Shown here piece by piece: positions 8,478 through 32,643 of a stretch of DNA of 41,590 nt (positions within the stretch are counted from its first letter, which is position 1; the number at the start of each line of letters is the position of its first letter). The DNA is from a virus. The notes below the pieces were generated by a model, which made no database searches, was not told the origin of the DNA, and saw nothing but the letters and a program-made list of their open reading frames with translations. The stretch lies in IMG/VR virus record IMGVR_UViG_3300020455_000030, positions 1 to 41,590 of that record; one strand, given 5' to 3'. A program made the translations under genes and the position numbers.

Positions 8478-8500
8478 TTTAAATTATTATTATGTCATAT

Positions 8501-8529
8501 ATTATAAGACCCCTGACTGAATCAGTCAA
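8501..8529 (-). promoter_or_regulatory. Sigma70-type promoter for the oxygenase-nitrilase island
   Basis: Minus-strand TTGACT (8524-8529), 17 bp spacer, TATAAT (8501-8506). The predicted start near 8494 lies 17 nt before ATG 8477. The -35 box is buried in one arm of the inverted repeat at 8508-8534 and the spacer spans the other arm, so the repeat may be an operator, a terminator of the previous unit, or both. Confidence 0.75.
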
Positions 8530-8534
8530 GGGTC
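8508..8534. repeat. 13-bp inverted repeat overlapping promoter
   Basis: Arms 8508-8520 and 8522-8534 are complementary over 13 bp with one G-T wobble and a single base between them. As RNA on the minus strand it makes a strong hairpin just after the 53-residue gene, but it is followed by TTATAATATAT rather than a run of T, so intrinsic termination is only likely, not certain. Confidence 0.7.
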
Positions 8535-8560
8535 GGTGAACATTTTTTAATCTTAACTAG

Positions 8561-8722
8561 TTAGGTTAGAATCTCCTTACAGATTTTTTTACAAGAGGAG
8601 TGATCGTCTGCACAATCGATCAAGCAATCAAAGTAGTCGTTTACTATTTCTGAGTCTAGTTTAGGCTCATCGATTTCAGACCATTCTGCTAATTGATTGA
8701 ATGATAAGATATTGTGTTTCAT
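8561..8722 (-). CDS. Small acidic Cys-containing protein, 53 aa
   Basis: A short gene starting MKHNILSFNQLAEW and ending with a cysteine-bearing tail (CLIDCADDHSSCKKICKEIL), four cysteines in about 20 residues. A good GAAGGA Shine-Dalgarno lies 4 nt before ATG 8722, and it fills most of an otherwise empty gap, which supports it as real. The cysteines could bind zinc or form disulfides. Unknown function. It has a CTAAATA motif about 70 nt upstream and an inverted repeat downstream, so it may be transcribed alone. Confidence 0.72.
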   Translation of the reverse strand: MKHNILSFNQLAEWSEIDEPKLDSEIVNDYFDCLIDCADDHSSCKKICKEILT

Positions 8723-8791
8723 GATTTCCTTCTTTAACTGGACTATAACAAAGAGAGTTTCAGGTCATCTTGTTAACCTTAATTCTACCAC

Positions 8792-8798
8792 TATTTAG
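8792..8798 (-). promoter_or_regulatory. Late-type promoter motif CTAAATA
   Basis: CTAAATA on the minus strand in the 135-bp gap between talC and the 53-residue gene. This is the form of the T4 late box commonly seen in cyanophages. The start would be near 8783, leaving about a 60-nt leader. Nothing else is recognised in 8723-8857. Confidence 0.45.
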
Positions 8799-8857
8799 TA
8801 TAGAAATTTCAAAAAATGGTATTTCTGTGACAAAAATTTATGCCTACTAGTTTATAC

Positions 8858-9517
8858 TTATCCACCTGCAATTTTTTCAATAACCTGTTCCCAATCTGCA
8901 TCAAACAGTTCTAATCCTTTATCAGTAAGAATATGCTTGTACATCTTGTCAAGCACAGAAGGAGGGAGAGTACAGATGTCTGCACCTGCATCAAAACAAC
9001 GACCGACTGTGTGTGCTTCACGAATAGATGCTGCTAACACTTCAGTTTTTACAAAATGTTCTTTGTATACACTACAAATAGTTTGAACTAGTGCAACTCC
9101 AGAAAATGAATTGTCATTAAGTCTTCCTACAAATGGAGAAACATATGTTGCACCTGCTTTTGCTGCAAGGATTGCTTGTACTACTGAGAAAATAAGAGTG
9201 ACATTGACCTTAATACCATTCTCAGAAAGTTTTTTGCAAACATACAATCCTTCAGGACTACAAGGCACTTTGATTGTTGCTTGAGCACCAAATTTTTTAG
9301 AGAGTCTCAATCCCTCTTTCAGCATATCATCTGCATTTCCTACAACTTCCATACTGATATCAGGAATACCAATATCAATAAGTTCTTGGTATACCTCCTC
9401 AGGATCTCTGCCACTCTTTCTAATAAGAGTAGGGTTAGTTGTTACACCATCAACCAAACCAGTCTCGTAATGTTTGCTGATGATTGAGGTGTCTGCTGTG
9501 TCTAGAAAAATTTTCAT
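8858..9517 (-). CDS. talC: Transaldolase, TalC type
   Basis: Interconverts sedoheptulose-7-phosphate and fructose-6-phosphate in the pentose phosphate pathway. The 219-residue protein is of the short fructose-6-phosphate-aldolase-like class. Visible marks are MKIFLDTADT at the start, GVTTNPTLI, the Schiff-base lysine K83 in TIKVPCS, and TYVSPFVGRLND. It is a well-known cyanophage auxiliary gene thought to push host carbon toward NADPH and ribose for nucleotide synthesis. AAAGGA lies 9 nt before ATG 9517, which overlaps the previous stop (ATGA). A private sigma70-type promoter sits at 9559-9588. Confidence 0.97.
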   Translation of the reverse strand: MKIFLDTADTSIISKHYETGLVDGVTTNPTLIRKSGRDPEEVYQELIDIGIPDISMEVVGNADDMLKEGLRLSKKFGAQATIKVPCSPEGLYVCKKLSENGIKVNVTLIFSVVQAILAAKAGATYVSPFVGRLNDNSFSGVALVQTICSVYKEHFVKTEVLAASIREAHTVGRCFDAGADICTLPPSVLDKMYKHILTDKGLELFDADWEQVIEKIAGG

Positions 9518-28885: not shown

Positions 28886-31375
28886 TTATTGAAAAAATGA
28901 TTCGAGTGTTGCAACCTTTTCTGCTTTCCACCCAATACTATCTAGGATGGTGCGAAGAGGTTCTAAAAATGCTTTATCAAACTGTAGATCATAGTCAACG
29001 AACCTATTAATATTAAGTTCTTTGGGGAAGTCTTGAATGAATGAGATAACATTCTCATGAAGATTGTTTGGTTTCTTCAGGTAGCAAAACTTGATCTTCT
29101 CTCCATTACCAATCAAAGAATATTTGTTGTCTAGTTTATTTTCTTTGATGTGATGATTGAATAGTAGAGCACCACGAACATGAATGGGAGTTCCTTTAGT
29201 ATAGATGTGTGAATATGATTTGTATTTTTGAACATCACTTACTGATCGTGGGAAAGATATTTCTTCTGGAGGAAGTTGTTTAAATTTCTTACGACTAGAA
29301 TCGATGAAATCAATAACCTCATCTTCTGTGCCATTCATCATAAGTTTCAAGGCATCCTTGATCATGGTGCGACAAGGTGCAGGAGTTGATGACTTGACTG
29401 CTTCAATACCCATCATCTTAAGTTTAGGTTCTTCATAGCGAACACCTTCACTGTCCCACACATTCAGGATGTATCTTTTCTTTGCTGTCCAGATACCACG
29501 ATCAGCAATGTTCTCGCGTTTCATGAACATCTTCTGATCATATGCAGACACATAGTCTGCTAGTTCTTTGTAGCACTTGTTGATGAACGGTTCCAGTTTC
29601 TCATCACAGATTTTATCAAGAAACGAGACAATCTTTTCATTAGATTTTTCTTTATCCCCAAAGATAAGATCCACCAAAGGACCAAGATTAAGATAAATGG
29701 AATCAGTATCACTGGCGATGACATAATCAACCTCTTGTGTTTTGAGAATTTTGTTTAAGTAACTATTCATTTTATTTTCGATCCATCTAATAGATACTTG
29801 CCCTGAGAGTGTAATTGCCTCAGCGTTGGCGAGTTTATAGTACCTAAAGTACTGATTACCGATAGCACCATAAGCAGAATTAAGAGATATCTTTTTCGCC
29901 ATCTGAATATTGTTACAACGGGCGATCTCTTTACTGAGTTTTTCTGAGGGTTTCTTTTCATAGTCCTGTTTAGCAGAGAGCATTCTTTTCTTGAAGATCA
30001 CACGCTCGTTGTACATCTTCTCCATGAGTTCAGGGAGAAAACCACGAACATCTTTTCTATACTGTGCTCCATTAGCACACACTGCAAATTCTCCATCAAT
30101 AGCAATCTCTTGCTTTAAAATCCTTTCAACGCTCGCACTGGGATGTCTGCTCTCCCTGAGTGTTTCGGGGGAGATATTGTACTGCATAATAAGATGAGGA
30201 TACAGACTGTTGAGGTCAAAACTGACAACCCAATCATAGAGTCCCGCAATCGGTTCTTTAACATAAGCACCTGCATACTTTTCGTCTTTGTCGGATTTTA
30301 CCTTCGGAGGAATAACAATGTTTCTCTTCTTTAGGTAGTTATAAATTATGTTGTCCCACATGCGGACTTGATAGAACACATCAGAGTAATTGACCTTGGC
30401 ATCATATGCCATGGTTAATGCCAACTGGATAAGTCCCATCTTGTCCTCAAGACGGTCAACAAGTTCCACATCAATTATATTATATTCTACGAACTTTTGC
30501 CAATCATTAGTGTAAAATGCTTTGAAGGTATCATGTTCAGACCAATCCAACTTCTTCTGCCCCAGTTCTACCTGTGCGATATAATCCAATCGGTATGACT
30601 CTCGATTTGTATAAGTAAATTTCTTATAGAGATCGAGATAATCTAATTGTGTGATACCACCAATATCATAAGTTTGATGTTTACGACCTTTGATATAAAT
30701 CTCACGAGGAGATACCAAACCCCATGGCGACATCCTGCGAGTTAGTTTCTCACCAAGAATCCTATCCATTCTTTTAGTAAGATATGGAATATCAAACAGT
30801 TGAATGTTCCAACCAGTCACAATGTCTGGAGTATTGTCCATCCACCATTGAATAAAATCACTGAGCATATCATGCTCATTGTTGAATTGGCGATAGACAA
30901 CATTATCCTTCTTAACTTTGAATGAACCAATACCCCATGTGATAATATCTTTTGTATTGTAATCCTGCATAGAGATGAGCAACATCTCTTGATCAGCAGA
31001 TTCTACATCGGGGAATCCATTTTCTGATTTGGTTTCAATATCGATTGTATATAAACGAATTTTTGATATGTCAAACTTAATCTCACTCTCAGGATAACTA
31101 TCAGCAATATACTGATAGATAAATCTATCCTGACCATAGATGGGAAAGTCTTCTACGAACTCATATTTTTTGATGAAGTCTCTTGTCTCCCTGACAGTGC
31201 CAGGTTTGATCTTCTCAACATAATCACCCTCTAGGGTTTGATACTTTGTTCTCTTTTTTGCGGGTACAAATAAAGTAGGAGAGTATTTCTCACGGAACTG
31301 GAAATACTCTCCTTTGTCATAACCACGAACGAGGAAGTGATCCCCGATCATTACCACATTTGTATAGAACTTCAT
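28886..31375 (-). CDS. 43: DNA polymerase, family B, T4 gp43
   Basis: Replicative polymerase with proofreading. Exonuclease motifs: DIE at D112/E114, D195 in WNIQLFDIPYL and D302 in NIIDVELV. Polymerase motif A D387 (SFDLNSLYPHLI), motif B KISLNSAYG near 495-503, and motif C D556/D558 (SDTDS). 829 residues, a little shorter than T4 gp43 and intact. It overlaps the preceding small protein by 4 bp. The C-terminal tail should bind the gp45 clamp. Confidence 0.98.
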   Translation of the reverse strand: MKFYTNVVMIGDHFLVRGYDKGEYFQFREKYSPTLFVPAKKRTKYQTLEGDYVEKIKPGTVRETRDFIKKYEFVEDFPIYGQDRFIYQYIADSYPESEIKFDISKIRLYTIDIETKSENGFPDVESADQEMLLISMQDYNTKDIITWGIGSFKVKKDNVVYRQFNNEHDMLSDFIQWWMDNTPDIVTGWNIQLFDIPYLTKRMDRILGEKLTRRMSPWGLVSPREIYIKGRKHQTYDIGGITQLDYLDLYKKFTYTNRESYRLDYIAQVELGQKKLDWSEHDTFKAFYTNDWQKFVEYNIIDVELVDRLEDKMGLIQLALTMAYDAKVNYSDVFYQVRMWDNIIYNYLKKRNIVIPPKVKSDKDEKYAGAYVKEPIAGLYDWVVSFDLNSLYPHLIMQYNISPETLRESRHPSASVERILKQEIAIDGEFAVCANGAQYRKDVRGFLPELMEKMYNERVIFKKRMLSAKQDYEKKPSEKLSKEIARCNNIQMAKKISLNSAYGAIGNQYFRYYKLANAEAITLSGQVSIRWIENKMNSYLNKILKTQEVDYVIASDTDSIYLNLGPLVDLIFGDKEKSNEKIVSFLDKICDEKLEPFINKCYKELADYVSAYDQKMFMKRENIADRGIWTAKKRYILNVWDSEGVRYEEPKLKMMGIEAVKSSTPAPCRTMIKDALKLMMNGTEDEVIDFIDSSRKKFKQLPPEEISFPRSVSDVQKYKSYSHIYTKGTPIHVRGALLFNHHIKENKLDNKYSLIGNGEKIKFCYLKKPNNLHENVISFIQDFPKELNINRFVDYDLQFDKAFLEPLRTILDSIGWKAEKVATLESFFQ

Positions 31376-31644
31376 TCAATAACCTTCAAATACTCCGACA
31401 GTAGTTCTGATTCTGGATCAACAATAGTTAGTATAGCATCTGATGAGATTTTACACTTGTTTTGTGTTGTTACTCCCTTACCTGGCCATCTTTGCAATCT
31501 ATCTTTCCAATCTTCTTTGCCTACAGTAAACTCAACTGGATCAGTTAACTCACAATCTGGTTCGCCAATATCTGCAGCAACCTCTCTGATCTTAGTGATC
31601 AAAACTTTAAAGTCGCCTTTCATTATAAGAACTTTAACTGACAT
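31372..31644 (-). CDS. Small protein, 90 aa (paralogue pair, member 2)
   Basis: Function unrecognised. It shares a layout with its upstream neighbour: start MSVK, a short beta-rich N-terminus with an I..IREV core, a central P-E strand, and an end reading ILTIVDPESELLSEYL. Small beta-barrel (Sm-like) proteins have this size and pattern, but this is only a suggestion. ATG 31644 shares one base with the previous stop (TAATG). Coupled to gp43. Confidence 0.74.
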   Translation of the reverse strand: MSVKVLIMKGDFKVLITKIREVAADIGEPDCELTDPVEFTVGKEDWKDRLQRWPGKGVTTQNKCKISSDAILTIVDPESELLSEYLKVIE

Positions 31645-31955
31645 TACTCTCGCCTCCCATGGGTTAGGTTTTCATACATTTCTCTGAGTTCACCTACAGG
31701 TTCACATACAACAGAGACTGTAGAAGGATTCATGATATATGTATCGTCCTCTGAAATTTCCATCCAAGTTCTAAGACCAACCTTTTTAATTTCACCACCT
31801 GCAGAATTTTTTTCCTCTTGGAATTTAATATCTGTTGTGTAGATAATTTCAAATGGTTTAATTAAAAGATATGATCTAGCATCTCCATCAGTAACTTCTT
31901 TGATATCCGCTAGGATTTGCGTACCACTATTCAAAACAGCAATTTTAACAGACAT
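31644..31955 (-). CDS. Small protein, 103 aa (paralogue pair, member 1)
   Basis: Starts MSVKIAVLNSGTQILADIKEV, a hydrophobic/polar alternation suggesting a small beta barrel, and ends VSVVCEPVGELREMYENL. It aligns in outline with the next gene (VK, IKEV/IREV, P-x-E, V-P-EL-Y), so an old tandem duplication is likely. A CTAAATA motif lies 17 bp upstream, after the gene-free region. Function unknown; Sm/Hfq-like fold is a guess worth modelling. Confidence 0.74.
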   Translation of the reverse strand: MSVKIAVLNSGTQILADIKEVTDGDARSYLLIKPFEIIYTTDIKFQEEKNSAGGEIKKVGLRTWMEISEDDTYIMNPSTVSVVCEPVGELREMYENLTHGRRE

Positions 31956-31971
31956 GCTTATTTAAAAAAAA

Positions 31972-31978
31972 TATTTAG
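31972..31978 (-). promoter_or_regulatory. Late-type promoter motif CTAAATA
   Basis: Minus-strand CTAAATA at the downstream border of the gene-free region, 17 bp before ATG 31955, so initiation would give a very short leader. Confidence 0.5.
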
Positions 31979-31984
31979 GGTGGG

Positions 31985-32171
31985 AGGAGGGAATACATTT
32001 TACCCTCAAGTTATGGGAATCGCTAGTGCGAAAATTAGTACATAACAACAACAGTCCTTCTGGTAAGAAGTTCATCCGAAGATGCGGGCACCACCCCTGA
32101 CCGTTTACATTACCCCGCCTAATTCCAACAGGGTTGTTCAGTCACTCCCTTGTTAACCTCGTCAGATCAAC
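31985..32171 (-). ncRNA. Candidate structured non-coding RNA
   Basis: This is the largest stretch between well-supported genes and no convincing ORF is found. Read on the minus strand it contains, in order: AACAAGGG pairing with CCCTGTT; GCGGG pairing at a distance with CCCGC; CATC-UUCG-GAUG, a classic stable UUCG tetraloop hairpin (32074-32085); CTTCT-TACC-AGAAG (32056-32069); and CGC-ACTA-GCG. A sigma70-type promoter (32178-32206) ends just upstream and predicts a start near 32171. GAGGG/CCCTC near 31988-32008 could close the 3' end. It could be a trans-acting phage RNA or a long structured leader for the downstream genes. The ends are estimates. Confidence 0.5.
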
Positions 32172-32177
32172 AAAATA

Positions 32178-32206
32178 ATTATACCATAAAAAAAGGAGGG
32201 TCGCAA
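32178..32206 (-). promoter_or_regulatory. Sigma70-type promoter embedded in the hsp20 terminator
   Basis: Minus-strand TTGCGA (32201-32206), 17 bp, TATAAT (32178-32183). The -35 box lies in the loop and arm of the terminator hairpin and the spacer contains its T-run. It would initiate near 32171 and transcribe the gene-free region. Confidence 0.55.
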
Positions 32207-32213
32207 CCCTCCT
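32187..32213 (-). terminator. Intrinsic terminator after hsp20
   Basis: On the minus strand AGGAGGGT - TGCG - ACCCTCCT forms a perfect 8-bp stem with a 4-nt loop, followed by seven T (plus-strand A run 32188-32194). It begins 5 bp after the hsp20 stop codon. Confidence 0.88.
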
Positions 32214-32217
32214 GACT

Positions 32218-32643
32218 TTAGATCCAATCTTTTCGAGCGTGATGCTCTGGCACTACCTTTCCTAGCGTGACTGATAGCAATCCATCTTCAAAGTTAACTT
32301 CCTTGACAATGGTGTCATCAGCAATAGTCCATGCTCTTGAGAATGATCTTTGTGCTAGTCCTCTATGTGCATATTCTGTATCTTCTTTCTCTTCTTTTTT
32401 TCCTTCTACAACTAGTTTACCATACTCTGTGTAAACTTTAACCTCATCTCTTTTAAATCCTGCTAGTGCAATTTCTAGTCTAGATACCACATTACTTACA
32501 TTGATAAGATTGTAAGGTGGATAGTTAGAAGTTTGTTGATCAAAGAAACGATCAAAATAAGTGTCGAGTCCGATGCTATTCTTAGTAATCCGATCCATTA
32601 AGTCTGGTAAATCGGCAGCATGAAATCTTTGAATGTTAGCCAT
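32218..32643 (-). CDS. hsp20: Small heat shock protein Hsp20
   Basis: ATP-independent chaperone with an alpha-crystallin domain (residues ~45-130): the strands NVVSRLEIALAGF, VKVYTEYGKLVVEGKK and the end VNFEDGLLSVTLGK match the family. Residues AQRSFSRAWTI correspond to the conserved F/R-rich strand. A strong GGAGGAG ribosome-binding site precedes ATG 32643. Cyanophages often carry hsp20, presumably to protect proteins during infection. A perfect terminator follows, so it is the last gene of its unit. Confidence 0.95.
   Translation of the reverse strand: MANIQRFHAADLPDLMDRITKNSIGLDTYFDRFFDQQTSNYPPYNLINVSNVVSRLEIALAGFKRDEVKVYTEYGKLVVEGKKEEKEDTEYAHRGLAQRSFSRAWTIADDTIVKEVNFEDGLLSVTLGKVVPEHHARKDWI

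Follow-up and report, generated by a model that had tools for sequence, protein, structure and literature searches.

What lies in the gap between the hsp20 gene (32218-32643, minus strand; Pfam PF00011, PHROG 432) and the two small paralogous genes that precede the gp43 DNA polymerase gene (28886-31375, minus strand; PHROG 262, 1218.8 bits) in a viral DNA stretch of 41,590 nt (IMG/VR record IMGVR_UViG_3300020455_000030; this whole stretch is called the window below)? The initial annotation described the gap, 31956-32217, as the largest gene-free interval of the window and as a strongly structured stretch that has its own promoter and probably encodes a phage non-coding RNA, of a family that it did not recognize. 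No ORF of at least 60 aa runs across the gap on the gene-bearing strand; at 262 nt it is among the largest gaps and not the largest one, as the interval 8478-8857 is longer, though with a 53-aa ORF. The idea of a non-coding RNA with a promoter of its own was right, and the family turns out to be a known one. A covariance search against Rfam had been set beforehand as a check, and cmscan comparison of the whole window with Rfam 15 gave a single match, to the manA RNA (RF01745), on the minus strand at 31977-32172 (128.4 bits, gathering score 55.2, E 2.5e-33). The match covers the model end to end (positions 1-192), there is one manA copy only, and the membership of the window RNA in the manA family is firm.

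The manA motif was reported by Weinberg et al. 2010 (PMC2864571) in potential 5' UTRs, with some copies near an ibpA/hsp20 gene, and was listed there as cis-regulatory and a probable riboswitch; reviews repeat the label. manA RNAs are found in many T4-like cyanophages, and since 2010 annotations and reviews have carried them as cis-regulatory. S-CREM1 also carries manA, with a role that is unverified according to PMC9964418. No manA ligand is named in PMC2864571, PMC9964418 or the reviews, and literature searches found no published phage transcript data naming manA. The question is whether manA controls the gene that follows it or is a gene in its own right. We think it likely that manA is a stand-alone RNA gene of T4-like cyanophages, producing a separate molecule that would act in trans.

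The minus strand of the gap has a predicted folding energy of -64.2 kcal/mol, with a z of -2.4 relative to dinucleotide shuffles, which is only moderately better than the shuffles and not decisive by itself; the match to a curated covariance model is far more telling, and the two together bear out the strong structure that had been proposed. The UUCG hairpin seen initially (CAUC-UUCG-GAUG, 32073-32084, minus strand) and the second hairpin adjacent to it are both present, the former being the variable hairpin of the manA family. A long-range GCGGG/CCCGC pair, also proposed, had to be dropped: it is absent from both the Rfam consensus and the minimum free energy structure, and in both of these CCCUGU is the local partner of the GGCGGGG strand.

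For comparison, loci were collected by pattern and protein scans of IMG/VR and from annotated phage records. By nhmmer, manA was matched in 257 loci, of which 180 were unique and 166 full length; removal of near-identical sequences among those with sufficient flank left a non-redundant set of 126 loci, whose counts are not fully independent because several loci come from related phages. Covariation was examined in a MAFFT alignment of 58 sequences that had not been fitted to any structure. RNAalifold predicted 28 pairs in these homologs, 19 of them with changes on both sides, and the Rfam structure transferred from the window had a covariation score of 0.216, compared to 0.112 +/- 0.005 for shuffled controls (0 of 500 shuffles as high). 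The same structure slid by +1 scored 0.212, yet both its paired cells and its covarying pairs were fewer. The closing helix is 98.6% paired and the 3' hairpin 100%, and the length-variable helices, which are misaligned in the MAFFT alignment, score lower. The consensus helices of manA are kept through compensatory change. The initial annotation had named a lack of structural covariation, or a conserved protein encoded across the region, as grounds for abandoning the RNA; covariation is present and no such protein was found, the annotated "hypothetical proteins" that overlap manA in other phages being unlike one another in position, length or strand.

On the minus strand of the window, the order of elements is the hsp20 stop codon, a GGAGGG-TTGCGA-CCCTCC hairpin with a run of seven T, TATAAT, the RNA, CCCTAAATATTTTTTTTAAATAAGC, and the ATG (31955) of the first small gene. 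The promoter and its placement just after the hsp20 terminator had both been read correctly: TTGCGA (32201-32206) and TATAAT (32178-32183) are separated by 17 nt, and the intrinsic terminator (32188-32212) consists of the hairpin at 32195-32212, with the -35 hexamer in its loop, and the T-run at 32188-32194. As judged from these elements, the terminator would separate manA from hsp20 transcription. A start near 32171-32172, initially put near 32171, agrees with model position 1 at 32172, and the position of the -10 hexamer relative to the RNA 5' end recurs across loci. Taking the best TTGACA/TATAAT pair with at most two mismatches in total over both hexamers, we found that 155 of the 159 loci with sufficient flank have a near-consensus sigma70 promoter where the RNA starts, versus 26 of 830 random control positions on the same contigs; therefore, in almost all of the phages the 5' end of the RNA coincides with a predicted transcription start, irrespective of the upstream gene. 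Terminators are found within 113 nt upstream of the RNA in 59 of 158 manA loci, versus 44 of 963 for other ORFs. Many manA copies have a composite terminator-promoter, in which the terminator of the upstream gene contains the -35 hexamer, in its loop or arm, and the -10 hexamer comes after the T-run (window, 32178-32212; P-RSM1, L039; P-TIM40, L043; P-SSM2, L096).

On the 3' side, several arrangements occur. Among the 126 loci, manA is followed by a tRNA within 60 nt in 8, by an intrinsic terminator in 24 and by a conserved hairpin in 23, so that in 55 of 126 loci manA is set apart from the next gene by one of these elements; for terminators, the background is 1.3% of random windows and 4.6% of positions before other ORFs. 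In P-RSM1, a terminator and then a new promoter lie directly 3' of manA. In 52 loci, the window included, an ORF begins within 60 nt with no such boundary element, and the remaining 19 have none of these. The window copy ends 21 nt from the downstream ORF; it is followed by a U8 run, with no terminator hairpin before the first ATG and none of the three boundary elements. A CTAAATA motif overlaps its 3' end (31972-31978, minus strand) and may serve as a separate promoter for the downstream genes; we take this motif, and its variant ATAAATA, to resemble the T4-type late promoter. In 32 of 162 loci, one or the other occurs in the 60 nt that follow manA, compared to 2.5% of random windows and 12.5% of positions before other ORFs.

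The conserved hairpin is an observation in its own right. It is about 45 nt long and has the form GACCTAAGATGCAACTC-loop-GAGTSGGGCAGATGGTC, often with a T-run after it; in 31 of 166 loci it follows manA at a distance of 8-16 nt (copies at L140:4567-4614, L002:2889-2936, L187:4147-4194 and in 20 other loci, alignment A2). All eight stem pairs are kept (8/8), three of them with changes on both sides. Those contigs have it at no other place on the strand that carries manA, and one copy searched against Rfam matched no family above chance; it may be a terminator particular to manA or a motif not described before. Two further hairpins with a T-run recur after manA, one with CCTCGTGATGCTATCYTTCGCCTCTCCGAGG in L090, L092 and L249, the other with GAGGGAAGTCTGGTCAGAATCAGACACTCCCTC in L091, L173, L194 and L205.

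tRNA genes also lie close to manA. The non-redundant loci contain 17 tRNAs, and 14 of these are within 250 nt of manA on the same strand, where 0.6 would be expected (binomial p ~2e-18); in all 166 loci it is 18 of 21, and every one of the 18 is on the manA strand. In locus L236, the order is tRNA-Thr, manA (126 bits), tRNA-Ala, tRNA-Asn, with a spacer of at most 1 nt on either side of manA and no promoter between tRNA-Thr, manA and tRNA-Ala. In S-SSM7, a tRNA-Gly gene starts at the last base of manA and separates it from the DUF6561 pair and gp43, which are also the genes found after manA in the window. By the established route of tRNA maturation, with RNase P and 3' processing, the manA copies that abut tRNAs would be released as separate RNAs.

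The genes next to manA have little in common. A survey of 21 phage records found manA in 16, one copy in each, and none in S-PM2, Syn9, Syn19, S-SM1 and S-SM2. It lies after gp23 in P-RSM1, P-RSM4, S-TIM4, P-HM1, S-SSM5, MED4-213 and metaG-MbCM1, before talC in P-TIM40, P-TIM68 and P-RSM6, and after pstS in S-SSM4 and S-SSM6b; in the window and S-SSM7 it precedes the DUF6561 pair and gp43. The proteins encoded downstream of manA in 154 loci fall into 40 clusters that differ in function, among them gp32, transaldolase, pyrimidine dimer glycosylase, epimerase, carbamoyltransferase, mannose-6-phosphate isomerase and DUF6561. The same genes also occur without manA. talC is present in 18 of 19 phage records, directly 3' of manA in only 4; the window has its own internal control, a talC-like transaldolase gene, recognized by resemblance of its translation to talC proteins (8858-9517, minus strand), with no manA upstream, although talC follows manA in other cyanophages. 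A DUF6561 relative is found in all 19 cyanophage records (19/19) and follows manA directly in S-SSM7 only, and in P-TIM68 the slot formed by hsp20, the DUF6561 pair and gp43 contains no manA. DUF6561 is among the two commonest neighbors, in 22 of 143 loci not picked via the DUF6561 protein; loci L012-L035 and those re-fetched from the same records were left out of this count because they had been found through that protein.

The sequences themselves show that the RNA belongs to the manA family, has its structure and a promoter, occurs as a single copy in a variable context and lies next to tRNAs; these features bear on several explanations. According to the original proposal of Weinberg et al., also expressed in the Rfam type "Cis-reg", manA would be a leader or riboswitch that senses a metabolite and controls the next gene, here the DUF6561 pair and gp43. 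The complex and conserved core does recall riboswitch aptamers, and the 52 of 126 loci with an ORF within 60 nt and no tRNA or terminator in between, the window among them, are leader-like and count against a stand-alone gene; single copy and variable neighbors could also arise if a leader moved along with changes in its regulon. Against a leader stand the 40 downstream clusters, with no common gene and no consistent functional class, the occurrence of talC and DUF6561 without manA, the boundary elements that intervene in 55 of 126 loci, and the L236 copy that abuts tRNAs at both ends. The 5' arms of the terminators show no excess pairing to the 3' strand of manA (mean z -0.17, n = 24), which led us to reject an antitermination platform; with no terminator hairpin in the window copy either, neither comparison revealed an expression platform coupled to an aptamer. 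We consider a metabolite-sensing leader unlikely, though control in cis may occur at loci that lack a boundary element, such as that of the window. The initial annotation had left open a trans-acting RNA or a leader for the paralogue pair and gp43; the former is better supported and the latter less so, because copies elsewhere precede terminators, tRNAs and other gene families, and because the same genes occur without manA.

In a mixed arrangement, manA would be a stand-alone RNA that, wherever a terminator is lacking, doubles as the 5' leader of an mRNA made by read-through, with effects in cis on stability or processing. Both arrangements do occur among the 126 loci, and the U8 run and missing terminator hairpin before the first DUF6561 ATG would allow it in the window; a conserved expression platform was not found, however, and the late-promoter-like motifs between manA and the gene in 32 of 162 loci would give mRNAs free of manA. 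We regard such a double role as improbable. Chance structure in an intergenic gap, with no RNA function, would agree with a fold only moderately better than shuffles, but it is refuted by the full-length Rfam match and the strong covariation and has practically no probability left.

Most of the comparative evidence, as far as sequences can tell, is at odds with the cis-regulatory label and agrees with a stand-alone RNA gene. For such a gene, the following course of events may be proposed. A host-type sigma70 RNA polymerase would start at about 32172, just past the hsp20 terminator, and the RNA of about 196 nt would fold into the manA structure, with a 5' hairpin and a closing helix GGGAG/CUCCC around a multi-branched core. 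In other phages, an intrinsic terminator or the conserved 3' hairpin would set its 3' end; where a tRNA abuts, processing of that tRNA would probably do so. In the window, where the 3' flank is U-rich, transcription could read into the downstream genes, so that read-through into the DUF6561 genes is possible; these genes may also own a late promoter. We infer that manA is a separate molecule, that it is stable and that it works in trans, as a structured RNA most likely complexed with protein.

One candidate for the protein partner is encoded next door. The first gene after manA (31644-31955, minus strand) specifies a DUF6561 protein of 103 aa (Pfam PF20198, E 3e-7), and the second (31372-31644, minus strand) a paralogue of 90 aa (PF20198, E 5.5e-23). 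The AlphaFold model of the first (pLDDT 78) has as its top Foldseek match PDB 3by7 (E 4.7e-5, TM(target) 0.86), which is described as similar to Sm/LSm-like RNA-binding proteins, and it also matches viral proteins, some of them named Sm-like; an Sm/LSm-like fold is predicted on the basis of this model. It is conceivable, though quite unlikely in our estimate, that manA is bound by these phage proteins and is the stable RNA of a trans-acting ribonucleoprotein, made early, and not a riboswitch.

Bacterial genomes were searched as well. In 300 genomes of the picocyanobacterial family there is one match, on a Prochlorococcus single-cell contig whose neighboring genes, with translations read by eye, look T4-like (recombination endonuclease, UvsW-like helicase); a host origin of manA was rejected, as the sole match sits on this phage-like contig. 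Divergent chromosomal copies (79-90 bits) are found in 6 of 52 Photobacterium genomes (loci L300-L305), between a phosphoglycerate-mutase-like gene and a gene for a small membrane protein, also read by eye from translations. In the loci examined, the next ORF starts more than 200 nt from manA, and we count this intergenic position in favor of a stand-alone RNA.

If manA copies are stand-alone RNA genes, looking for a ligand is the wrong course, and one should ask instead how the host is affected by an RNA of about 195 nt that widespread ocean phages make from an early-type promoter. Several known systems are relevant. The wcaG, PhotoRC-II and glutamine (glnA) RNAs are structured RNAs of the same cyanophages (PMC9964418) and belong to families different from manA; cmscan with Rfam found no match to them in the window. 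PhotoRC-II and glutamine aptamers are present in some manA loci, and in L167 two glutamine riboswitch aptamers (1194-1242 and 1707-1802) flank manA on the same phage contig. Closer in setting are GOLLD and ROOL (PMC12286853), which, like manA, are structured phage non-coding RNAs of unexplained function, often near tRNA genes. They are several times longer, differ in sequence and structure and form multimeric cages, while manA has about 190-200 nt and no known multimer, so that the likeness is one of position only and not of membership. With the published manA motif (RF01745) itself, the window copy shares the full-length match, the cyanophage origin and the proximity to hsp20; it is in the interpretation that we differ, since PMC2864571 saw a cis-regulatory 5' UTR element and the present evidence favors a separate RNA gene.
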